64,000 bases of DNA from NCBI RefSeq assembly GCF_018069625.1, contig NZ_CP072941.1, positions 9,796,001 through 9,860,000 of the forward strand, in the 5' to 3' direction. Both the position numbers and the translations under genes were made by a program. Numbering within the stretch: the first letter of the stretch is position 1; every line of letters starts with the position of its first letter. Below are positions 9,269 through 20,939 of the stretch, piece by piece. The notes beneath the pieces were generated by a model. The model was given only the letters and a program-made list of their open reading frames with translations, did not search any database and was not told the origin of the DNA. This DNA is from Streptomyces yatensis (GTDB taxonomy: Bacteria > Actinomycetota > Actinomycetes > Streptomycetales > Streptomycetaceae).

Positions 9269-10180
9269 TCACAGCTCCAGGACGGTCCGCACCGGCAGAT
9301 GGTCGCTGGGGTACTGGCCGTCCCCGGAGTAGGTGTCGATGACGGCCTGGAGGGTGCGCACACCGGGTGAGGTCAGGATCCAGTCGATCCGGTCGCCGTC
9401 CGGGACCAGCGGACCGAAGCCGTGGAACGTCCCGTACAGCGGGCCGCGCCGCTCGGCGGTGTCCCACGAGTCCACCAGCGTGCCGCCGTTCAGCATGGCC
9501 TCGTAGACCGGGTTGCCATGGGCCGCCACATTGAAGTCGCCGGTGACGATGCGGGGGAGCGCGGAGTCCAGAGCGCCGAGCCGCTCGGTGATCAGGGCGG
9601 CGGCGCGCTCACGGGCGTTCTGGCTGCGGTGGTCCAGATGGGTGTTGAGGGCGTAGAACTCCTTGCCGGTCCGCAGGTCGTGGAAGCGCACCCAGGTCAC
9701 CATCCGGACCACGGCCCCACCCCACGTGTTGGAGCCGATCACGTTCGGGGTGTCGGACAGCCAGAAGTGGTCGTACTCCACGGGCTCGAGCCGCCCGGTG
9801 TCGTAGAAGACGGCCATGAACTCGTCGCGGCTGCCCCCCATCCGCCCGGTGCCGATCCACGCGTAGCGCTGTCCGAGGTCGTGGGCGATGTCGCGCAGCT
9901 GGCCGTACAGCCCCTCCTGCGTGCCCAGCAGATGGGGCCGGGCCCGGCGCAGCAGCTCCCGCATGACCGGGCGGCGCCGGCCCCAGGAGTTGGGCTCGCT
10001 GTCCCCGGCGTAGCGCAGATTGAAGGTCATGGCGGCCAGCCGAGGCCCGTCGGCGGGGGCGACCGGGGCGGCGGTGACCGCCGTGGCCACGTACTGCGGC
10101 TGGGAGGCGAGCGGAAGCGCGGCGGCCGCCGCGGCCGCGACACGCATACCGTGACGGCGGCTGAACACAGGTGCGGGCAT
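9269..10180 (-). CDS. Secreted endonuclease/exonuclease/phosphatase-family hydrolase
   Basis: 303 residues from ATG 10180, which has an ideal GGAGGA site 3-8 bases upstream. The N-terminus has Arg-Arg followed by an Ala-rich hydrophobic stretch (FSRRHGMRVAAAAAAALPLA), a probable Tat-type or Sec signal. The mature part carries the EEP catalytic motifs: TFNLRYAGD, LGTQEG (metal-binding Glu), YALNTHLDHRS, RIVTGDFNV (D-x-N), DRIDWIL and the terminal SDHLPV (catalytic His). The family hydrolyses phosphodiesters in nucleic acids, sphingomyelin or inositol phosphates; an export signal favours scavenging. It is divergent from the sulfotransferase gene. Substrate is not determinable. Confidence 0.88.
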   Translation of the reverse strand: MPAPVFSRRHGMRVAAAAAAALPLASQPQYVATAVTAAPVAPADGPRLAAMTFNLRYAGDSEPNSWGRRRPVMRELLRRARPHLLGTQEGLYGQLRDIAHDLGQRYAWIGTGRMGGSRDEFMAVFYDTGRLEPVEYDHFWLSDTPNVIGSNTWGGAVVRMVTWVRFHDLRTGKEFYALNTHLDHRSQNARERAAALITERLGALDSALPRIVTGDFNVAAHGNPVYEAMLNGGTLVDSWDTAERRGPLYGTFHGFGPLVPDGDRIDWILTSPGVRTLQAVIDTYSGDGQYPSDHLPVRTVLEL

Positions 10181-10420: not shown

Positions 10421-11428
10421 GTGAGGTTACAGCCGCTGACCTTCGTCGTGGGGACCGGACGCTGCGGTTCCACTGCTCTGTCGCGTGTTCTGCGGCTGCA
10501 CCCGGATCTGCTCAGCGTGAGCGAGCTGATCGCCGCACTGGAGCCGGACGCGCTTCCCGAGGCACCGCTGACCGGGGCGGAGTTCTGGCGGATCCTCGCC
10601 ACCCCGCGGTCGTTCGCCAACCGCGTCATCCGCGATGGCATCCCGCTGCCGGAGTACCGGTATCCGCATGTCAAGGGGCGGTTCTCGGTGGCCGGCGGTG
10701 GCATTCCGGCCCTGTGCATGATGACGCTGCCTCATCTCACCGACGACCCCGACGCGCTGTTCGACGCGCTGGAGCCGGAGCTGTCCCGGCGGCCCGCCGC
10801 GCCGGTGGCCGATCACTACCGGGCGCTGTTCGGCCTGCTGGGGGAGCGGTTCGGCGGGCGGGCCGTGGTGGAGCGCTCCGGCTACTCGCTGCGGTCGGTG
10901 CCCCGGCTGCGGGAGGCCTTTCCCGAGGCCCGGTTCGTCCACCTGCACCGGGACGGCGCCGACTGCGCGCTCTCCATGAGCCGCCACCCCGGATTCCGGC
11001 TGATCCAGCTGATGGCGGAGCGCGCCGAGACCACCGAGGACCTTCCGGCCGGTCTCGCGGCGCTGCTCAGCGACGATGACGCCGATCTGCGTCCGCTGTA
11101 CGAACGGTCCGTAGCCATCGCCGAGTTCGGCCGGCTGTGGTCGCACACGATCGTGGAGGGGCTGGCGCATCTGTCCCGGCTGCCCGCCGCGATCCGGATG
11201 TCCCTGTCGTACGAGAGCCTGCTCGACGCGCCCGAGCGCGAGCTCACCCGGCTGGCCCGCCATCTCGGTGTGGACCCCCTCCCGGAGTGGCTGGCGGCCG
11301 GAAGCGCCCTGCTCGACGGCGACCGCCGGGGCACGGCCGCCGCGACCCTGCCACCCGCCGAACTGGCCGCCCTCCGCGAGAGCTGCTCCCCCGGCGCCCG
11401 GGCCCTGAGCCTGGCCGGTGCCGGATGA
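10421..11428 (+). CDS. Sulfotransferase-family protein with a TTA codon
   Basis: 335 residues starting GTG AGG TTA. The 5'-phosphosulfate loop is FVVGTGRCGSTALSRVL at residues 8-24, and the 3'-phosphate loop is represented by RFVHLHRDGADCALSMSRHP. Together they indicate a PAPS-binding sulfotransferase fold transferring sulfate to a small molecule or sugar. The third codon is TTA (10427-10429), read by the bldA tRNA in Streptomyces, so translation may be limited to late growth. The ribosome site is GGAAGGGG 8-15 bases upstream. The gene stands alone: divergent from the EEP hydrolase and convergent with a LysR gene. It could serve the terpenoid operon beginning at 12844, but nothing ties them directly. 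Confidence 0.82.
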   Translation: MRLQPLTFVVGTGRCGSTALSRVLRLHPDLLSVSELIAALEPDALPEAPLTGAEFWRILATPRSFANRVIRDGIPLPEYRYPHVKGRFSVAGGGIPALCMMTLPHLTDDPDALFDALEPELSRRPAAPVADHYRALFGLLGERFGGRAVVERSGYSLRSVPRLREAFPEARFVHLHRDGADCALSMSRHPGFRLIQLMAERAETTEDLPAGLAALLSDDDADLRPLYERSVAIAEFGRLWSHTIVEGLAHLSRLPAAIRMSLSYESLLDAPERELTRLARHLGVDPLPEWLAAGSALLDGDRRGTAAATLPPAELAALRESCSPGARALSLAGAG

Positions 11429-11640: not shown

Positions 11641-12567
11641 TCAGGCCGTCGCCGCTTCGGTGACCTCCCCCGACTGCTCGACGGCCACCGCCCGCAACGC
11701 CTCCAGCAGGGCGGCCACCGCGGGCACCCGCGCCGCCTCCGGCCGCAGCAGCGCGCAGACATGGCGCCGGGGCCAGTCGTCCAGCGGGCGCGGCTCGACC
11801 CGCGGATCGGGCCGGGGGAGCAGACCGAGGCCGTCCATCAGCGCGATGCCCACCCCGTCGCCCACCAGGCCCAGGGTCGTCGCCTGGTCATCGGTCGTGG
11901 TCACCACCCGGGGCTCGAACCCCGCGTCAGCGCAGCGCCGCAGCAGCCGCCCGCGGTCCCGCTCCAGGATCCACCGCTCCCGCGCCAGATCGGCGAGTCC
12001 GACGCTGCGCCGCCCCGCGAGCTCATGGCCCCGAGGCAGCAGCACATGGCGGCGGTCGACCAGCAGCGGGACCCGGCGCAGCGGGGTGTTCGCGGTCCCC
12101 GAGGCGTCGCCCGTCTCATCGTCGGCGACGATCGCCAGATCGGTCTCGCCCGCGTCCAGCAGCCGGTACGCGTCATGGGAGTCGGTCTGGCCCAGCTCCA
12201 CCTCCACCTCGATGCGCGAGGCGCCCAGTCTCGCCAGCGCCGCGGGCAGCACGGCGACACAGACGCTCTGCACCGAGGACATCCGCACCCGGCCACGGGT
12301 GCGCGCGGCGAGCGCCTCGAACTCGTTCTCCACATCCCGCAGCCCGGCCAGCACATCCTGGGCGCGCTCGGCGAGTCTGTGGCCCGCCGGCGTGAGCCGT
12401 ACCCCCCGCCCCGCCTTGACCGTGAGCGGCACGCCCACGGCACGTTCCAGCGCGCGCATGTGATAGCTGATGGCCGGTTGGGTGTAACCGAGGCGGTCCG
12501 CCGCGGCGCTGTACGAGCCGGCGCGACAGACCTCTGCGAGTACGGTGAGCTGGCGAAGATCGATCAC
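11641..12567 (-). CDS. LysR-family transcriptional regulator
   Basis: About 308 residues. The winged helix-turn-helix is at the N-terminus (DLRQLTVLAEVCRAGSYSAA, LGYTQPAISYHMRALE), followed by the linker helix and a two-lobed effector domain (RVRMSSVQSVCVAVLPAALA; DLAIVADDETGD; DGVGIALMDGLGLLP). GTG 12567 is chosen because it yields MIDLRQL, the usual family N-terminus; a TTG at 12594 would add nine residues and swallow the operator. Neither has a ribosome site. It is divergent from the terpenoid operon at 12844, the standard geometry for a LysR protein controlling its neighbour. The ligand is unknown. Confidence 0.88.
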   Translation of the reverse strand: MIDLRQLTVLAEVCRAGSYSAAADRLGYTQPAISYHMRALERAVGVPLTVKAGRGVRLTPAGHRLAERAQDVLAGLRDVENEFEALAARTRGRVRMSSVQSVCVAVLPAALARLGASRIEVEVELGQTDSHDAYRLLDAGETDLAIVADDETGDASGTANTPLRRVPLLVDRRHVLLPRGHELAGRRSVGLADLARERWILERDRGRLLRRCADAGFEPRVVTTTDDQATTLGLVGDGVGIALMDGLGLLPRPDPRVEPRPLDDWPRRHVCALLRPEAARVPAVAALLEALRAVAVEQSGEVTEAATA

Positions 12568-12575
12568 TACAGGAC

Positions 12576-12592
12576 GATAAAAATCGTTTATC
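12576..12592. promoter_or_regulatory. Candidate LysR operator (T-N11-A box)
   Basis: GATAAA, five bases, TTTATC: a perfect 6-bp inverted repeat. Inside it T at 12578 and A at 12590 are separated by exactly 11 bases, the consensus of LysR recognition sites. It sits in an unusually AT-rich pocket, 9 bases upstream of the LysR start and about 250 bases from the divergent operon, fitting autorepression plus activation of the operon. Confidence 0.6.
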
Positions 12593-12843
12593 AATTCCCG
12601 TAAGACTCTAATTGGACGCGTGATCGAGAGGCCGTCAAAATCATGGTGACGGATTTCGCCCGCACCCGCTCATTGAACTGACCGATCGGACACGGCCCCA
12701 CCCGCACTGGCTGACCGTACGGTCACAGCCCGCCCACGACGGTTTCCTCCCCACCGATCCGGCCGGACCGGCAAGGGGATCCGGGCGCGGTGACTTTCCT
12801 CCCTCCGCCCGAATCCCCCGCTGGAATGGATGGATGGTGCCCG

Positions 12844-13884
12844 ATGCATGATGGCTGGAATCGCATGACTCCGGTGGTCGCGGAGAACAATCCCTTCCAC
12901 CAGATGTCGCTCAACGAAACCGTTCACCCCCCGCTTCCCGAAGTGGTGGACGCCGTCCTGCGCACCGCGCGGACCGCCCACCGTACCCTGGATGCCCTCG
13001 GCGCCGGGCTCTGTCAGGCCCTCGCCGCACATCTGGGAGTGCGCCCGGAACATGTGCTGGCCGGACCGGGTTCCGGCGCGCTGCTCCAGCAGCTGTTCTC
13101 CACCCTCACCGGACCGGATACGGACACGGTGCACGCCTGGCCCTCGTGGGAGGCGTACCCCATGATGGCGGCCAACGCCGGATCCACCACCGTCCGGGTG
13201 CCGCTCACCGGATACGACCACGATCTGAAGGCGATGGCCGACGCCGTCACCGACCGCACCCGCATGGTCCTGCTGTGCACCCCCAACAACCCCACCGGCA
13301 CCGCGCTGGACCAGGAGCGCATCCTGCGCTTCCTCGACCGGCTCCCCGCGCACGTCACCGTCGTCATCGACGAGGCCTACCGGGACTTCGCCGACCCCGG
13401 CGCCGTCGCCGACGGCATCGCCCTGCACCGCGCCGATGAACGGGTCTGTGTGGTGCGGACGTTCTCCAAGTCGTACGGGCTGCTCAGCCTGCGGGTCGGC
13501 TATCTCGTGGCGCATGAGCCCGTGCTCGCCCCGCTCCGCTCGGTGCTGCCCTTCTACCGGGTGAGCGCCGTGGCGCAGGAGGCCGCCATCGCCGCGCTCG
13601 GCGCCCAGGAACAGGTGCTCCGGCAGTGCGCCGAGACCGCCGGGGAGCGCGACCGGCTCCACCGGACCCTGCTCGACCAGGGCTGGGAGGCGCCCGCGAG
13701 CCAGGGCAACTTCCTGTGGCTGCCCATGACCTCCGGAGTGGAGCGCTTCACCCAGTTCTGCGCGGACCACGGTGTGGTGGTCTGCGGAAAACCGGGCGAA
13801 GGGGTGCGGGTGACCGTCGCCGAGCCCGTCGCCAACCAGGCATTCGCGGAACTCGCCGGGAAGTACCGGGAGGCGGCCGTATGA
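12844..13884 (+). CDS. HisC-like PLP-dependent aminotransferase (first gene of terpenoid operon)
   Basis: 346 residues, fold-type I class II aminotransferase of the histidinol-phosphate/aromatic aminotransferase branch. Visible motifs: LAGPGSGALLQQLF (cofactor phosphate), LLCTPNNPTGTALD, VVIDEAYRDFAD with D176 contacting the pyridine nitrogen, and TFSKSYGLLSLRVGY with the Schiff-base K209. It is far from a housekeeping HisC context: no histidine genes adjoin, and its stop overlaps a prenyl synthase start (ATGA). It therefore probably makes or consumes an amino acid/2-oxo acid building block for the pathway. Starts at 12844 or 12865 are both possible; GGATGG precedes the former. It is divergent from the LysR regulator. 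Confidence 0.85.
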   Translation: MHDGWNRMTPVVAENNPFHQMSLNETVHPPLPEVVDAVLRTARTAHRTLDALGAGLCQALAAHLGVRPEHVLAGPGSGALLQQLFSTLTGPDTDTVHAWPSWEAYPMMAANAGSTTVRVPLTGYDHDLKAMADAVTDRTRMVLLCTPNNPTGTALDQERILRFLDRLPAHVTVVIDEAYRDFADPGAVADGIALHRADERVCVVRTFSKSYGLLSLRVGYLVAHEPVLAPLRSVLPFYRVSAVAQEAAIAALGAQEQVLRQCAETAGERDRLHRTLLDQGWEAPASQGNFLWLPMTSGVERFTQFCADHGVVVCGKPGEGVRVTVAEPVANQAFAELAGKYREAAV

Positions 13885-14909
13885 CACCTCCCGATGTCGC
13901 GGTCACCGAGGTGGCCGACCCGCTGGCGGAGGCCGCGCCGACCATGGAGCTCCTGCTGCGCGAGCTCGACCGGCGCTGGCCGACCGAGGCCGAACGCCTC
14001 CATCAGATCTCGCGGTACGCGCTGCTCCCGGCCGGGAAGCTGCTGCGCCCGCTGCTGCTCATGGAGTCGGCCGAGGCGGTGGGCGGCGGCGGACCCGGCG
14101 TCGTCCCGGCCGCGCTCAGCGTGGAGTACCTCCATGTGGGCTCCCTCGTCCACGACGACGTCATCGACGGCGACGCGATGCGGCGCGGCCGTCCGTCCGT
14201 CGTGGCGCGCTACGGCACCGCCGATGCCATCGTCACCGGGGACGCCCTGATGCTGGGCATGTTCGGGGTGCTCACCGACGGCGCCGAAGAGACCGGCGGA
14301 CTGCCGCCGGGCCGGGTCCTGGGCGCCGTGCGGGTCTTTGCCCGGGCGGGCGTCGACCTGTGCCGCGGCCAGGCGATGGAAGGCGAACTCCGCGGCGACC
14401 TCGGCTGCGGACTCGACCGGTATCTCACCATGAGTTCCCTGAAGACCGGGGCGCTGTTCCGGGCCGCCTGCCGGGGCGGGGCGATCCTGGCCGGCGGAAC
14501 CCCGGCCCAGCAGCACGCGCTCACCGCCTACGCCGAACATCTGGGGCTGGCCTTCCAGATGCACGACGACCTGCTGCCGTACACCAGCGACCCCCGCACC
14601 ACCGGCAAGTCCGCCCTCAGCGACATCGCGGCCGCCCGGCCCACCTTCCCCGTCCTGCTCTGCCACGCCATGGCCGGCGCCACCGGCCGCGCCCGGCTGG
14701 AGGCGGCGCTCGGCGGCGCCCTGCCCGCCGCCGACGCGCTGCGGACGGTGCGCGAACTGCTGGAGACGACCGGTGCGCTCGACGCCGCGCGGGACCAGGC
14801 CACCGCCCAGGCGGACCGGGCCACGTCCTGTCTGGCGGAGCTGCCCCGCTCCCGGGCCACCGCCGTGCTCGCGGCGGTGGCCGATCTGTCGGTCAGCCGG
14901 GACCGGTGA
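13881..14909 (+). CDS. Polyprenyl diphosphate synthase (trans-isoprenyl, long-chain-like)
   Basis: 342 residues. The first aspartate-rich motif is HDDVIDGD (D92), of the long-chain DDVID form. The second is HDDLLPYTSD (D229), with Pro where many enzymes have Asp. Conserved LLPAGKLLRP, Q/MEGE and the late SALSDIAAARPT region are present. The residue five positions before the first motif is Gly (VGSLVHDD) instead of the bulky aromatic that stops elongation in short-chain synthases. This suggests products longer than C20, by family rules and not proven. It condenses isopentenyl diphosphate onto allylic diphosphates in the cytosol. It overlaps the aminotransferase by 4 bases and is followed 4 bases later by the UbiA gene, so it very likely supplies that enzyme. 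Confidence 0.9.
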   Translation: MTPPDVAVTEVADPLAEAAPTMELLLRELDRRWPTEAERLHQISRYALLPAGKLLRPLLLMESAEAVGGGGPGVVPAALSVEYLHVGSLVHDDVIDGDAMRRGRPSVVARYGTADAIVTGDALMLGMFGVLTDGAEETGGLPPGRVLGAVRVFARAGVDLCRGQAMEGELRGDLGCGLDRYLTMSSLKTGALFRAACRGGAILAGGTPAQQHALTAYAEHLGLAFQMHDDLLPYTSDPRTTGKSALSDIAAARPTFPVLLCHAMAGATGRARLEAALGGALPAADALRTVRELLETTGALDAARDQATAQADRATSCLAELPRSRATAVLAAVADLSVSRDR

Positions 14910-14913
14910 CGCC

Positions 14914-15912
14914 GTGGCGGCCCCGCGCACCGCACTCCTGGCCCATCTGCAGACCTGGCGCCCGTACACCCTGTGGTATCCCGGGCTGGTCGGACTCGCC
15001 GGAGCCACCCTCGCCGAAGCGCACCCCACCACCGGGCAGTTGCTGGTGGCCTGGGCCGCGCCGACCCTCGGCTGGCTCGCCGGCCACTATCTCGGCGACT
15101 ACTACGACCGTGACCTCGACGCGCTCAGCAAGCCCCAACGTCCCATTCCTTCGGGCCGGTTGAGCCCACGAGCCGCCGTGGCCACGGGCACCGGCTGCGC
15201 CATCGCCGTGGCCGCGCTGGCCCTGTGGGCCAACTGGCGCGCCGTGGCCGTGGCCGCCGCCGCCATGGCGGGCATCGTGGCCTACAGCCGGGTGCTCAAG
15301 GGACGTGGCCTGTCGGGCAATCTCATCCGGGGCGTGCTGACCGCGCTCACCGTGCTCTTCGGCGCGATGGCCGTCCAGCCGTGGCCACCGTGGCGGGCGC
15401 TGCCCTTCGCCCTGGTCTTCCTGGCCCATGACACCGCGTCCAACCTCGTCGGCACCCTCCGCGACGTCGACGGCGATCGCGAGGGCGGCTACGCCACCGT
15501 GCCGGTGCGCCAGGGTGTCCGGCGCGCCACCCACACCGCGGCCGCGCTGTATCTGGCCGCCGTGGCGGTGGCCTGCGCCGCCACCGGGCTGGTGCCCAAG
15601 GACACGGCCGGCTATCTCGTGCTGCTGTCCGCGGCGGCGCTGTGCGGCGCGGGCGCCTTCGGGCTGCTGCTGCGGTCACCGGGGCACCTCGCCCCCGCGC
15701 TGGCGCTGCGCGCCCACGCCGTCCTCGTCGCCGAACGCCTGGTGCTGGCCGCGGCGGTGGTGGCCGCGGGCGCCGGTGCGGCGCCCGCCCTGGCGCTGCT
15801 GACACCGCTCCTCACGGTCAGCGTCATCACCCAGAGCCGGATGCGGTCCCGGCACGAATTCCCCGCCCCCCTGGCCGACGGCGGTCCCACCCTCCCCGAT
15901 CCACGCCCCTGA
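14914..15912 (+). CDS. UbiA-family membrane prenyltransferase
   Basis: 332 residues, eight to nine hydrophobic helices. Both magnesium-diphosphate motifs are intact: the first is GDYYDRDLDALSKPQRPIPS (D62 onward), the second is RDVDGDREGGYATVPV (D184 onward). UbiA proteins transfer a prenyl chain to an aromatic ring, a quinone precursor or a glycerophosphate. The QRPIPSG stretch is common to aromatic and digeranylgeranylglycerol types alike, so the acceptor is open. GTG 14914 is the first start after the previous stop, 4 bases away, with only a weak ribosome site, which fits coupled translation. It occupies the central chain-attachment position in the operon. Confidence 0.9.
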   Translation: MAAPRTALLAHLQTWRPYTLWYPGLVGLAGATLAEAHPTTGQLLVAWAAPTLGWLAGHYLGDYYDRDLDALSKPQRPIPSGRLSPRAAVATGTGCAIAVAALALWANWRAVAVAAAAMAGIVAYSRVLKGRGLSGNLIRGVLTALTVLFGAMAVQPWPPWRALPFALVFLAHDTASNLVGTLRDVDGDREGGYATVPVRQGVRRATHTAAALYLAAVAVACAATGLVPKDTAGYLVLLSAAALCGAGAFGLLLRSPGHLAPALALRAHAVLVAERLVLAAAVVAAGAGAAPALALLTPLLTVSVITQSRMRSRHEFPAPLADGGPTLPDPRP

Positions 15913-15947
15913 AACACCGCGCGTCACCAGCAGAAGGGTCCGCTCCC

Positions 15948-17654
15948 ATGCCCGCTTCCGCCTTGACCGAGAGCGTCGGCACGGCCGTCACCGCCGGTAC
16001 CGAGGCGCTCCTCGCCCACCGGCGCGACGACGGCGCCTTCGTCTTCGGCGCGCACCACGCCTCCCCGCTGAACACCGCCGGAGCCCTCACCGCACTCCAC
16101 TTCGCCGATCCGGAGGGCTCGGCCGGGACCATCGAGCGCGGTGTCACCTGGCTGTGCGAGACCCAGCGGGACGACGGCGGCTGGGCCATGCGCGGAGTGC
16201 CCACCGAACCCCTCACCACCGCGCTCGCCGCCGCGGCACTCCACCTGCTCGCCCCCCGCCGGGCGGCGTCGGCCGTCCACGCCGCACGGGCCCGGTTCGA
16301 CGAGCTCGGCGGCTCCGGGGCCGTTCCGGAACCCGCGATGACCGCCCTCATCCGCCAGTTCCACACCTTCGCCGGACTGCCCCACGAGGGAGCCCAGCGG
16401 CGGCTCCCCCTGGAACTGCTGCTCTTCCCCGGCCTCAGCCGGCGGCTGCTGAGCCTGCGGCTGCCCATCTACGCGAGCCAGGCGCTCGCCCAGTCCGCCC
16501 ACCGCCGCCGCGGCCCGGCCGGCCGCGCCCTGGACCGGCTGGCCCGGCCGAGGGCCCTGGCGATCGTCCGTGACGCGTACGAACGCGAGGGCGCCACCGG
16601 CGGCTTCAGCACCGACCCCTGGCTCACCGGACTCATCTGCCTGGGCCTCGCCCGCTCCGGCCGGGCGCCCGACCTGGTCCGCGCCGCCGCCCGCTGGCTC
16701 CGCTCGGCGGCGAACCCGGACGGCTCCTGGGATCTGATGCCGCTCGATGTGACCTGGACGAACTTCGCCACCGCCGCGCTGATCGAGGCCGGTCACGCCG
16801 AGGACCCGCAGCTGATCGGCACCCGCGAGATGCTCCACCGCCACCAGCAGCCCGAACCGTTCGACGCCCTCGGCTGCCCGGCCGGCTACTGGGGCTTCTC
16901 CAGCCCCCGCAGCTGGCCGATGGCCCTGGAGACGGCCGAGTCCAGCGCCATCCTGCTGAAGCTGCCCGGCGGCGCGGACGACCGCCACGTCCGGGCCGGA
17001 CTGGCGTGGCTGACCGCCACCCAGGACGCCGCCGGATCCTGGAGCCTGGCCGTACGGAACAGCAAACCGGGCGGCTTCGGGCCCTGCCCCCAGATGACGG
17101 CCAAGGTCGTGGGCGCCCTGCTCGACTCCGGAGCCGGGGCCGACGACCCGCGCGTGGCCAAGGCGGTGCGCTGGCTGCTCGGCCGGCAGCGCCCCGACGG
17201 ATCGTTCGAGGCCATGTGGTACCGCGGCGGCAGCCCCGGCACCGCCGCGGCGCTGGAGGCGCTCAGCCGGGCGGGCCGCACCGGGGAACACCACCGCGCG
17301 GCGGCCCGGGCCAGGGACTGGCTGCTGCGCACCCGGCACCCCGACGGCTCGTGGAGCACGGGCGAGGGCACCCGGCCGGGCACCGTCGAGGAGACCGCCT
17401 GGGCGCTGCGCGGGCTGCTCGCCGCCGGGCTGAGCCCCGCCGACCCGGCCCCCGCGGCGGCGGCCCGGTGGCTCGTGGACGCCCAGCGGGCGGACGGCGG
17501 CTGGACCCCGGGCCCGGTCAACGAGTACGTCCGCGGCTGTGCCCGCTACGCCGACGACGGCATCGCGGCGGGCCTGGCGCTGCGGGCCCTCGCCCACTAT
17601 CGCTCCGCGGGGGCCGCTCGCGCAGCAGAAACCGGAGAAGGAGGCCGAGGATGA
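15948..17654 (+). CDS. Squalene-hopene-cyclase-fold protein with degenerate DXDD motif
   Basis: 568 residues. At least six QW-type repeats mark the alpha/alpha-barrel of class II terpene cyclases: QRDDGGW, NPDGSW, QDAAGSW, QRPDGSF, HPDGSW and QRADGGW. It is shorter than squalene-hopene cyclases (about 630-680). Where those have W-A/G-F then PDVDDTA, this protein has WGF then PMALETAE (residues 324-331). The catalytic central Asp is Leu, the first is Met, and the last is Glu. Either an unusual acid protonates an epoxide or alkene, or the protein has another role. AGAAGGG precedes ATG 15948. Its stop overlaps the FAD monooxygenase start (ATGA). In context it is the presumptive cyclisation step, but that is inference. 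Confidence 0.8.
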   Translation: MPASALTESVGTAVTAGTEALLAHRRDDGAFVFGAHHASPLNTAGALTALHFADPEGSAGTIERGVTWLCETQRDDGGWAMRGVPTEPLTTALAAAALHLLAPRRAASAVHAARARFDELGGSGAVPEPAMTALIRQFHTFAGLPHEGAQRRLPLELLLFPGLSRRLLSLRLPIYASQALAQSAHRRRGPAGRALDRLARPRALAIVRDAYEREGATGGFSTDPWLTGLICLGLARSGRAPDLVRAAARWLRSAANPDGSWDLMPLDVTWTNFATAALIEAGHAEDPQLIGTREMLHRHQQPEPFDALGCPAGYWGFSSPRSWPMALETAESSAILLKLPGGADDRHVRAGLAWLTATQDAAGSWSLAVRNSKPGGFGPCPQMTAKVVGALLDSGAGADDPRVAKAVRWLLGRQRPDGSFEAMWYRGGSPGTAAALEALSRAGRTGEHHRAAARARDWLLRTRHPDGSWSTGEGTRPGTVEETAWALRGLLAAGLSPADPAPAAAARWLVDAQRADGGWTPGPVNEYVRGCARYADDGIAAGLALRALAHYRSAGAARAAETGEGGRG

Positions 17655-18955
17655 GCCCCGATGTGCTCGTGTGCGGGGCGGGCGTCGGCGGTCTCGCCGC
17701 GGCCCGCGCGCTCGGCGGCCTCGGACTGGACGTCCTGGTGGTCGACAAGCAGCCGAAGGTCCGCCCGATCGCCAAGGGAGAGGTGCTCCAGCCGGGCGCG
17801 CTGCGCCTGCTGCGCTCCTGGGGCGTGGAGAAGCGGCTCGACGCCCAGGGCGCGGTCCGGCTCGGACGGCTGGTCGTCCGCGATCCCCGTGGCACCGCGC
17901 TGATGTCCCTCGACTACGGCCAACTGCCCGCCCCCGACCAATGGTTGCTGGCCCATGACCACACCGCCATCCTCGCCGCCCTGGCCGAGAGCCTCGGGCC
18001 GGGTGTCGAACTGCGCCGCGGTGTCCGCGCGGAGGCGCCGCTGCGCGACGGCTCCGGCCGGATCACCGGACTGCGGCTGGCCGAAGGCGGCAGGGTCTAC
18101 GAGCAGCGGGCGCCACTCGTGGTCGCCGCCGACGGCATCTCCTCACGGCTGCGGTCCTGGGCGGGCATCGAGGCGAAACGGGCCGACTATCCGCACCGGC
18201 TGGTCTCCTTCGACATCGGCGACGCCGACGCGGCCGCGCGGGCCGACGACTTCTCCGCGTATGTCACCGACCGGGGGCTACGGCTGCTCTATCCGCTGCC
18301 GGGCGGCCGGTTGCGGCTCTACCTCCAGGCCGGGCCCGATGAGCTGCGCGGTGTCACGGCGCGCGGGGGACTGGCCGACTGGGCCGCCCGGGCGCTGTCC
18401 CAGGTGCCCGCCCTGGAGCCGCTGACCGCCTCCCTGCTCGCCCATCTGGGCAGCCGCCAGACGCTGCCCGTCGGACGGCTGCTGTCGCCCCGGCTGTCCG
18501 GCCGCGGACTGGCGCTGGTCGGCGAGGCCGCGTACGCCGTCCATCCGATGGCGGCGCAGGGCATGAACACCGCCATCACCAGCGCCGGTGCCCTCGCCGA
18601 GCGGCTGTCGGGCCATCTGGAGCGTACGGGCGGGATGTCGGCCGCGGCGGTGGACGCCGCGCTGCGCGACTACCACGAGCGGCAGCTGCCCCTGCTCACC
18701 CAGGCGGCCAGGACCAGCGGCAACGCGGCGCGGATGGTCACCGATCTGTCGTGGCGCGGCCGGGTGCTCGGGCGCCGGGCCGTCCGACACACCGGCGCCA
18801 ACCCCCGGCTGCTGCTCACCGTCACCCACAACATGTCGGGCCTCGGCCCGCGCCCGCTGACCCCGCTGGACCGGCTGCAGCAGCTCGGTCTCCTCCCCGA
18901 TCCGCGCGCCCACCGAGTGCCGACCGCCCCGGCCGGCCGACCGCAACCCATGTGA
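17651..18955 (+). CDS. FAD-dependent monooxygenase (PHBH/UbiH-like fold)
   Basis: 434 residues with an N-terminal FAD motif ([20 protein letters not shown]), the DG motif [16 protein letters not shown] and the second FAD motif [20 protein letters not shown], where the usual GD is GE and GQG is AQG. The family hydroxylates aromatic rings or epoxidises alkenes (squalene-epoxidase-like members share the fold). In an operon with a prenyltransferase and a cyclase-fold protein it could epoxidise the prenyl chain before ring closure, as in fungal and some bacterial meroterpenoid pathways. GGAGG lies about 10 bases before ATG 17651, which overlaps the upstream stop. The regiochemistry is not readable. 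Confidence 0.88.
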
Positions 18956-18969
18956 GGACGGTTTACCGC

Positions 18970-19833
18970 ATGTCCACTTCCGCATTGATGGTGACCCCCG
19001 TCTCCGGAGCACTCGGCGCGGAGATCCGCGGTGTCGATCTGACCGAGCTCACCGATGAACTCTTCGACCGGATCCACGAGTTGCTGCTCAAACACCTCGT
19101 GGTCTTCTTCCCGGACCAGGAGCACCTCACCCCCGAGGCGCATATCGCCCTGGGACGGCGGCTGGGGGAGCTGGAGGTCCATCCGTTCCTGCCGAAGGTC
19201 GAGGGCCATCCCGAGATCGTGGTCCTGGACGCGGACCAGGGAGCCAAGGCCGACGAGTGGCATATCGACGTGACCTTCCAGCCCAATCCGCCGGTCGCCT
19301 CCATCCTCCATCTGCAGGTGTGTCCCGCCTCCGGAGGCGACACCATGTGGAGCAACCAGTACCTGGTCTACGAGACGCTCTCCGAGCCGATGCGCGAACT
19401 CCTCGACGGCCTCACCGCCGTCCATGTCCTCAACACCCCGCAGACCGGCGAGCACTCCGCAGAACACCCGGTGGTGCGGATCCACCCCGAGACCGGCAGG
19501 CGCTCCCTGTACGTCACCCGCATGTGGACCTCGCACATCCCGCAGCTCAGCCGCCCGGAGAGCGACGCCCTGCTGCAGTACCTCTTCGAGCACTCCGAGT
19601 CGCCCCGGTTCAACTGCCGCTACCGCTGGCAGCCCGGCGCCGTCGCGATGTGGGACAACCGCGCCACCCAGCACCTGGCCGTCAACGACTACACCGAACC
19701 CCGCAGGGGCCAGCGGGTGACCGTCCTCGGCGACCATCCCACCGGCGACACCCCGCGCTGGAAGGAGTACCGGCCCGCGCCCGACGAGCGCTACTACCCG
19801 CGCCACGTCACGGCCCGCCACGGCTACCGGTGA
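18970..19833 (+). CDS. TauD/TfdA-family Fe(II)/2-oxoglutarate dioxygenase
   Basis: 287 residues. The N-terminal [15 protein letters not shown] is typical of TauD. The iron ligands are H98 and D100 in EWHIDVTF and the distal H235 in [12 protein letters not shown]; the 2-oxoglutarate-binding Arg lies in the following [11 protein letters not shown]. All three metal ligands are present, so an active hydroxylase, desaturase or C-C/C-N cleaving oxygenase is likely. It is the last gene of the terpenoid operon, 14 bases after the monooxygenase stop, with GAGGA about 12 bases before ATG. A perfect hairpin follows within the convergent LPMO gene. Taurine or a herbicide acid as substrate is unlikely given the context. 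Confidence 0.88.
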
Positions 19834-19843
19834 CGGCGATCCG

Positions 19844-20743
19844 TCAGCGGCGCGGGTGTCGCCGCCGTACGGTGGCGGCGACACCCGCGCCGAGCACCAG
19901 CACGGACGCCCCACCGGCGAGCAGCACCGGAGTGCTGTCGCCGCCGTCCTCTTCTGAAGTGGCGGAGGTGGCGGAGGTGGCGCGGGAGGCCGCCGCGGTG
20001 TCCCGGGACGGCGGAGTGGCGGCGCGGGACGGCGGGGTGGCGGCCTCCGACGAGGGAGCGTCCGACGAGGGGGCATCCGACGAGGGAGCCTTCGACGAGG
20101 GGGCCGCAGCGCTCAGCACCACATCGGAACAGGAGTAGTAGGTGTCCGGGGTGCTGGTGTTCCGCCAGATCGTATAGAGCAGCTGACGGCCGGTCCGGCC
20201 GGCGGGCAGCGTGGCCTTGATGCGGTACGCGTCGTCGACCAGCGCGGGGTCCTCGGCCGTGGCGAACGGCTTCGCCTCCAGGTCCGACCACTTCAGCGGC
20301 CGCGCGGGATCGTAGCCCTCCTTGGTGAGATAGAGCTCGAAGGTCCCCGTGTGCGGGATCGTCGACCGGTAGGTGAGGGTGAGGTCGGCCCCGGCCGACA
20401 GCCGCGTCGACGGCCAGTCGGCGCGCGCCAGATCCAGCCCCCGGTACGCCTCCAGGCCTCCGCTGCACAGCTTCCCGTCCGGGACCCGCTCCCGGTCCTC
20501 GCCCGCCACCCCCGCGATCCGCAGGTTGTCCCAGTCCGCCGCCGCCGGACCATTGGCGGCCTGAGCCGCCCGGCACGCCGCCGACCGCGCCGCGCCCCCG
20601 CCCTCGGGGGAGCAGGCGAACGTCCGGCTCACCGGGTCCGTCGGCGCCCCGTGCGCCAGGGCGGGCTGTGCGGCCAGCGCGGTGAACAGCCAGGGGAGGG
20701 CCCCGAGAAGAGCGCCCACGGCGGCGGTGCGATACGAGGTCAT
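19844..20743 (-). CDS. AA10 lytic polysaccharide monooxygenase, membrane-anchored
   Basis: 299 residues. A Sec signal of about 30 residues ends AQPALA, exposing His31 (HGAPTDPVSRTFAC) as the N-terminal copper ligand of the histidine brace. The AA10 core follows (DGKLCSGGLEAYRGLDLARA, TLTYRSTIPHTGTFELY, RTGRQLLYTIWRNTSTPDTY, YSCSDVV). No cellulose-binding module is present. Instead a Ser/Ala/Pro-rich low-complexity linker with repeated PSSDA leads to a C-terminal membrane helix and an Arg/His tail, so the enzyme should stay at the cell surface. AA10 enzymes oxidatively cleave chitin or cellulose. ATG 20743 has GGAGGG upstream. It is divergent from the SapA-like gene. Confidence 0.9.
   Translation of the reverse strand: MTSYRTAAVGALLGALPWLFTALAAQPALAHGAPTDPVSRTFACSPEGGGAARSAACRAAQAANGPAAADWDNLRIAGVAGEDRERVPDGKLCSGGLEAYRGLDLARADWPSTRLSAGADLTLTYRSTIPHTGTFELYLTKEGYDPARPLKWSDLEAKPFATAEDPALVDDAYRIKATLPAGRTGRQLLYTIWRNTSTPDTYYSCSDVVLSAAAPSSKAPSSDAPSSDAPSSEAATPPSRAATPPSRDTAAASRATSATSATSEEDGGDSTPVLLAGGASVLVLGAGVAATVRRRHPRR
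19849..19891 (+). terminator. Perfect 18-bp hairpin ending the terpenoid operon, inside the LPMO 3' coding end
   Basis: Arms 19849-19866 and 19874-19891 are exactly complementary over 18 bases with a 7-base loop (GTACGGT). It begins 16 bases after the dioxygenase stop and overlaps the last codons of the convergent LPMO gene, which therefore encode an Arg-rich tail there. Confidence 0.7.
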
Positions 20744-20939
20744 CCGGTGCGGCCCTCCGACTCGGTGCGACGGGACGGGCCCAACACCCGTCCCGTCGAA
20801 TACGGGAAGCCGGGACCGGGCGTTCAAAGGCCGCCGGAAGCAGTCGTGCAATGCCGTACAACCATCCGCGACCCCAGCATGTCTCCCTAGGCAGACGCAA
20901 ACAGCGCCTACGCCCATGAAGAATCATTAAGGGGGACAA

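Follow-up and report, generated by a model that had tools for sequence, protein, structure and literature searches.

Related pathways and the operon of Streptomyces yatensis

The phenalinolactone pathway follows the order prenylation, epoxidation and cyclization, according to the title of a 2024 paper in the reference list of PMC13307353. An excerpt of a review states that the monooxygenase of the phenalinolactone (pla) cluster is believed to act as a terminal-olefin epoxidase (PMC5618424). The tiancilactones (tia) contain chloroanthranilate (excerpt of PMC10301674), and Amycolatopsis tolypomycina is the source of the atolypenes, which are tricyclic sesterterpenoids (excerpts of PMC10301674 and PMC8532670). 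For zigralone (zig), an aminotransferase, a polyprenyl synthase and a UbiA enzyme were proposed to give a prenylated indole-3-pyruvate derivative from tryptophan (PMC13307353). These systems were compared with a six-gene operon (positions 12844-19833, + strand) in a 64,000-nucleotide stretch of Streptomyces yatensis contig NZ_CP072941.1, referred to here as the window, which lies at 9.80-9.86 Mb of the 10.36 Mb single-contig genome. By protein search, the nearest match to the cyclase (98% identity) bears the name Streptomyces violaceusniger. The comparison makes it likely that the operon directs the synthesis of a polycyclic diterpenoid linked to an alpha-keto acid that derives from an amino acid, following the phenalinolactone logic with another supply of the acceptor.

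The six genes are intact and closely packed, and their junctions (5' to 3') are a 4-base overlap, a 4-base gap, a 35-base gap, a 4-base overlap and a 14-base gap. The first gene (12844-13884; Pfam Aminotran_1_2) encodes a class I/II aminotransferase dependent on pyridoxal phosphate, which is the proposed supplier of a keto-acid acceptor. It is followed by a polyprenyl diphosphate synthase (13881-14909; polyprenyl_synt), proposed to be a geranylgeranyl diphosphate (GGPP) synthase, and by a UbiA-family prenyltransferase with a GTG start (14914-15912; UbiA). The fourth gene (15948-17654; SQHop_cyclase N and C) encodes a class II terpene cyclase of the squalene-hopene cyclase (SHC) fold. The last two encode an FAD-dependent monooxygenase (17651-18955; FAD_binding_3), which is the proposed terminal epoxidase, and an Fe(II)/2-oxoglutarate dioxygenase of the PlaO1 type (18970-19833; TauD).

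Conservation of the six-gene set

A cyclase family profile scan of the GTDB species genomes yielded 69 loci, and the presence of each gene was scored by tblastn (E<=1e-15). The complete set was found at 58 loci, which belong to several actinomycete families. Five of the 11 remaining loci end at contig ends (L007, L012, L016, L024 and L050); at others the dioxygenase (L049 and L072), the synthase (L055) or the monooxygenase (L073) is missing, L058 has only the cyclase, and L075 has none of the six genes. The gene order of S. yatensis is retained in most Streptomyces and several Pseudonocardiaceae, often with an inserted O-methyltransferase gene; elsewhere it is shuffled (e.g. L026, L031, L034, L039 and Micromonospora). 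In 51 clusters, this operon included, each of the six genes has a full-length call; for these the pairwise distance matrices of the six families showed correlations of 0.75-0.96, the cyclase being the least congruent. Moreover, a UbiA relative (E<=1e-25) was detected in 19 of 160 Micromonospora genomes, and all 19 adjoin a synthase and a cyclase. Because of this recurrence, the congruent matrices and the constant UbiA association, the six genes are, judged from their sequences, a dedicated pathway that was largely inherited as a unit. The operon, its gene families and spacing, and the divergent LysR-family gene (11641-12594, - strand; TTG start in the open reading frame (ORF) list) had all been described in the initial annotation, and they are confirmed by the coordinates, the Pfam matches and the 58 complete loci.

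Cyclase matches were found in 5 of 293 genomes in a sample of the order and 3 of 394 in a sample of the class, with Amycolatopsis in neither; a sample within the genus Amycolatopsis gave 10 of 80. The Streptomyces speibonae genome has two cyclase-family members, one in a full cluster (L026) and one without the other five genes nearby (L058). In Streptomyces himastatinicus (L072), the cyclase match spans only query residues 206-542 and the dioxygenase is missing, and this copy looks decayed or incomplete. One contig filed as Candidatus Melainabacteria (L064) carries homologues of the aminotransferase, synthase, UbiA, cyclase, monooxygenase, O-methyltransferase, dioxygenase, P450 and glycosyltransferase genes; this placement is probably an assembly binning error.

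Comparison with phenalinolactone- and tiancilactone-type regions

PlaO1 matches were found in 16 of 392 Streptomyces genomes (E<=1e-60), 4 at 81-99% identity and 12 at 56-60%. The S. yatensis genome is among the 12, and its own dioxygenase is 60% identical to PlaO1. The DNA around the four closer matches (33-51 kb each) represents four pla/tia-type regions, which were classed by PlaO1 identity and gene content and not from database records. In all four, genes for a cytochrome P450, an FAH-family protein (Pfam run for one region), a UbiA enzyme, a cyclase, a monooxygenase and a PlaO1 homologue are contiguous. As in the S. yatensis operon, the UbiA enzyme, a non-DxDD cyclase of the SHC fold, an FAD monooxygenase and a PlaO1-type dioxygenase are encoded in one block. 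The identities to this operon are 40-60% overall by gene (cyclase 40-42%, monooxygenase 48-51%, UbiA 53-58% and dioxygenase 58-60%). One region (G006) also has Trp-halogenase-family, tryptophan-dioxygenase-like and AMP-ligase genes, and another (G085) has genes whose starts match, in the same order; since the chloroanthranilate of tiancilactone would need such genes, we infer that these two are tia-type. A polyprenyl synthase is encoded in each of the four regions, adjoining the block in two and far away in two. The synthase of the operon is 45-46% identical to the UbiA-adjacent synthases of the tia-type regions, and 33-34% to the distant pla-type ones.

The pla/tia-type regions differ from the operon in that the FAH-family gene occupies the place of the aminotransferase, and a P450 gene also stands beside UbiA. 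The cyclase motif is WPNFLDSAN; whereas that of the operon is WPMALETAE. No FAH-family gene was detected at the 69 operon-type loci (E<=1e-15) or by Pfam among the operon genes. Conversely, the four regions at their full lengths gave no aminotransferase (E<=1e-5) and no sulfotransferase homologue. The core thus stays fixed while the neighbouring gene is either of the FAH family or an aminotransferase, which suggests a modular supply of the acceptor. In the monooxygenase tree, the four pla/tia-type rows stand apart from the other 52 with full support in the Shimodaira-Hasegawa-like approximate likelihood ratio test (SH-aLRT).

Comparison with the atolypene, zigralone and gromomycin pathways

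The A. tolypomycina cyclase (P0098) has the LETAE motif. Its locus, taken from the genome with a 100% match, contains a P450 gene and, divergent from it, aminotransferase, synthase, UbiA, cyclase and monooxygenase genes. Five of the six genes, their order and the LETAE cyclase are shared with S. yatensis; whereas the divergent P450 gene is not. No PlaO1-type gene or sulfotransferase gene was found within 30 kb. Because the organism is the atolypene producer, we infer that this locus is the atolypene (ato) cluster. As a guess, the acceptor there might be a C5 keto acid of the valine type, for which C20 + C5 gives the carbon count of a sesterterpene.

The pathway had been regarded as unassigned in the initial annotation, which no longer holds, since relatives of the core occur in all four pla/tia-type regions and five of the six genes, in the same order, in A. 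tolypomycina. As for the view that no characterized pathway has exactly this set, none was found in the literature searched, which did not include the main papers; the core is known from the pla/tia type. Literature searches on sulfated or keto-acid UbiA terpenoids also listed no matching cluster. With both an aminotransferase and a PlaO1-type enzyme, the set is intermediate between the phenalinolactone and atolypene types, and no described product was found for it in the same literature. A seemingly orphan operon, present in dozens of actinomycete species, is in this way tied to a known antibiotic-making logic.

The zig cluster shares the aminotransferase, the polyprenyl synthase and the UbiA enzyme with this operon. 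However, it has a Pyr4-like membrane cyclase, epoxidation by a P450 and a thiamine diphosphate (TPP) enzyme, in contrast to the SHC-fold cyclase, the FAD enzyme and the PlaO1-type dioxygenase of S. yatensis. No Pfam match to a Pyr4-like cyclase, a TPP enzyme or DUF6875 was found in the six genes, the LysR and sulfotransferase genes or eight neighbouring ORFs, four of which have no Pfam hit at all. As to the kinship of the UbiA enzyme with ZigC, 19 of 160 Micromonospora genomes gave a match, all beside a cyclase of the operon type, in a sample that may or may not include Micromonospora zingiberis. A gromomycin-type pathway was also considered and dropped; that pathway has Rieske oxygenases, the cyclase GroF and an arginine-derived guanidine (excerpt of PMC12105684).

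Cyclase and oxygenases

The cyclase is predicted to have the squalene-hopene cyclase fold, which is that of the canonical class II cyclases. The DxDD motif is absent; in the motif alignment the sequence WPMALETAE (residues 323-331) places MALE at the DxDD site. Among the 51 cyclases, the site of the catalytic Asp is occupied by Leu in 50 and Val in one, and the following Glu is found in all. Leu in place of the catalytic Asp, together with the retained Glu328, would suit the opening of an epoxide. The squalene-hopene and oxidosqualene cyclases share 19-22% identity with this enzyme, which differs from them in the Leu and in its location within a prenyltransferase operon. Several actinomycete relatives (P0108, P0111, P0112, P0119-P0121 and P0125; 35-41% identity) have DDT or EDT in place of LET, and these might connect the alkene-activating cyclases with the epoxide-activating ones. 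The motifs DDTA, EDTA, LETA and LDSA of related cyclases form a natural set for shifts between alkene and epoxide activation in class II enzymes.

Proteins of the SHC fold and the UbiA family are found in both hopanoid and quinone synthesis, but it is hardly credible that the operon serves either primary pathway. A separate canonical SHC with a DIDDTAE motif is encoded at 2.48 Mb, and scores 470.7 bits vs 56.4 bits for the operon cyclase. Four other UbiA-family genes above the cut-off are located at 7.72, 4.71, 8.05 and 2.66 Mb, and the operon type occurs in only about 12 of 392 Streptomyces genomes (by PlaO1 identity). The view that this is not the primary hopanoid set was borne out by the canonical SHC and the other UbiA-family genes.

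The relatives of the monooxygenase in the PDB include 2x3n (85 bits) and squalene monooxygenase (46 bits). For the dioxygenase, PlaO1 (7qtd) is the best of the solved structures with 389.1 bits, which exceeds taurine dioxygenase (216.4 bits) by a margin of 173 bits. Its HxD, H and R residues are present in 51/51 sequences.

Acceptor supply and proposed pathway

Both Asp-rich motifs of the synthase are present in all 51 clusters. The Asp-rich motifs of the UbiA enzyme are also intact; the possibility that it acts as a terpene cyclase instead of a prenyltransferase was rejected on this ground. We favour a keto acid as the acceptor, because the Asp-rich and active-site stretches of the UbiA enzyme are nearly the same as those of the pla/tia type, to which the enzyme was 53-55% identical in this comparison. 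The aminotransferase scores about 353 bits (352.8) against PRK03321, under the cut-off of 374; whereas a protein at 5.30 Mb of the same genome reaches 560.2 bits, and the operon copy is a diverged relative. Its closest solved structure is the putative phenylalanine aminotransferase 4r2n (246.7 bits), and the Lys of the SKxxG motif is present in 50 of 51 sequences.

In the proposed pathway, the aminotransferase would convert an aromatic or branched amino acid to a keto acid, and the synthase would provide GGPP. The UbiA enzyme would then geranylgeranylate the keto acid at carbon, and the FAD enzyme would epoxidize the terminal olefin. Glu328 of the SHC-fold protein would open the epoxide and the rings would close. 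The PlaO1-type dioxygenase might oxidize the chain beside the keto acid to a hydroxy-butenolide or a related lactone. Finally, a hydroxyl would be capped by a sulfotransferase in this lineage; an O-methyltransferase is present instead in most others.

The prenyl group might instead be attached to the aromatic ring of a phenol, hydroxybenzoate or indole, as in the fungal meroterpenoids, the merosterolic acids and zigralone, with the aminotransferase only making or recycling an aromatic precursor for prenylation on the ring. This is unlikely: the UbiA active-site stretches are of the pla/tia type, and the Pfam matches of the operon include no gene that would supply a phenol or benzoate precursor. 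Moreover, the UbiA relatives in Micromonospora (E<1e-25; 19 of 160 genomes) all stood beside a cyclase of the operon type. It is also improbable that the aminotransferase acts late, converting a terpenyl keto acid made from pyruvate or another primary keto acid to a terpenyl amino acid. In the pla/tia-type clusters prenylation does proceed although the regions examined contain no aminotransferase, and the operon copy has diverged while a stronger PRK03321 protein is encoded elsewhere in the genome; but 58 of 69 loci have a PlaO1-type oxidase, which needs the keto or enol form if a lactone is made, and ZigA was proposed to act in a precursor step.

The dedicated meroterpenoid pathway with prenylation, epoxidation, cyclization and an amino-acid-derived acceptor, as first suggested, therefore gives the best reading, and the remaining question is narrowed to one step, namely which keto acid is prenylated by UbiA. 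Several points weigh against the keto-acid diterpenoid. The steps and their order come from homology, so that the chemistry is a prediction, and the C20 chain length of the synthase product is a proposal. The aminotransferase could take an aromatic or a branched amino acid. The best solved relatives of the monooxygenase are non-epoxidases, and the lack of the dioxygenase within 30 kb in A. tolypomycina means that, as far as gene content tells, this oxidation is dispensable in the family. The comparison takes as background the function of PlaO1 and the origin of the lactone carbons of phenalinolactone from pyruvate. Deletion of the zigralone aminotransferase still gave product (PMC13307353).

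More tentatively, and with somewhat less than even confidence, the loci might represent a widespread class of terpenyl keto-acid lactones. These would have an aminotransferase-delivered side chain on the lactone ring and Glu-type epoxide-opening cyclases, with a sulfate cap in one Streptomycetaceae lineage and O-methyl groups or sugars elsewhere.

Tailoring genes and flanking features

A sulfotransferase-family gene (10421-11428, + strand; Sulfotransfer_3, 73.7 bits) lies beyond the LysR gene and is not co-transcribed with the operon; it had been overlooked in the initial annotation, being outside the span described there. Homologues are present at 13 of the 69 loci, directly 3' of the dioxygenase gene in six (L015, L019, L024, L027, L048 and L055), and the gene probably belongs to the pathway as a tailoring enzyme. 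LysR homologues were detected at 9 loci and O-methyltransferases (Methyltransf_2) at 47; no locus has both a sulfotransferase and an O-methyltransferase. This exclusion was dropped as strong evidence for alternative caps and counts as weak, because a single switch on the monooxygenase tree explains it. A P450 gene (c6) is within reach at 42 of the 69 loci and absent from this operon. The Micromonospora, Labedaea and some Saccharothrix loci have additional EryCIII-like glycosyltransferases, so that their products are probably glycosylated. The same loci variably contain KASIII-like, AMP-ligase, condensation-domain and ATP-binding cassette (ABC) transporter genes, the transporter label being predicted from sequence.

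Upstream of the sulfotransferase gene is an endonuclease/exonuclease/phosphatase-family gene (9269-10147, - strand), for which no pathway link was seen. A plasmid collection searched with protein queries contained no match. Scanning for sigma-70 promoters yielded no site, and scanning for terminators yielded one, within the cyclase gene, vs 1.2 expected. At the other end, a lytic polysaccharide monooxygenase gene (LPMO_10; 19844-20917, - strand) converges with the operon. Their junction holds a strong inverted repeat (19848-19892), with -50.6 kcal/mol and z-scores of -5.9 on the + strand and -6.4 on the - strand. It was not reported by the scan for T-tract terminators, and is probably a terminator common to the operon and the LPMO_10 gene.
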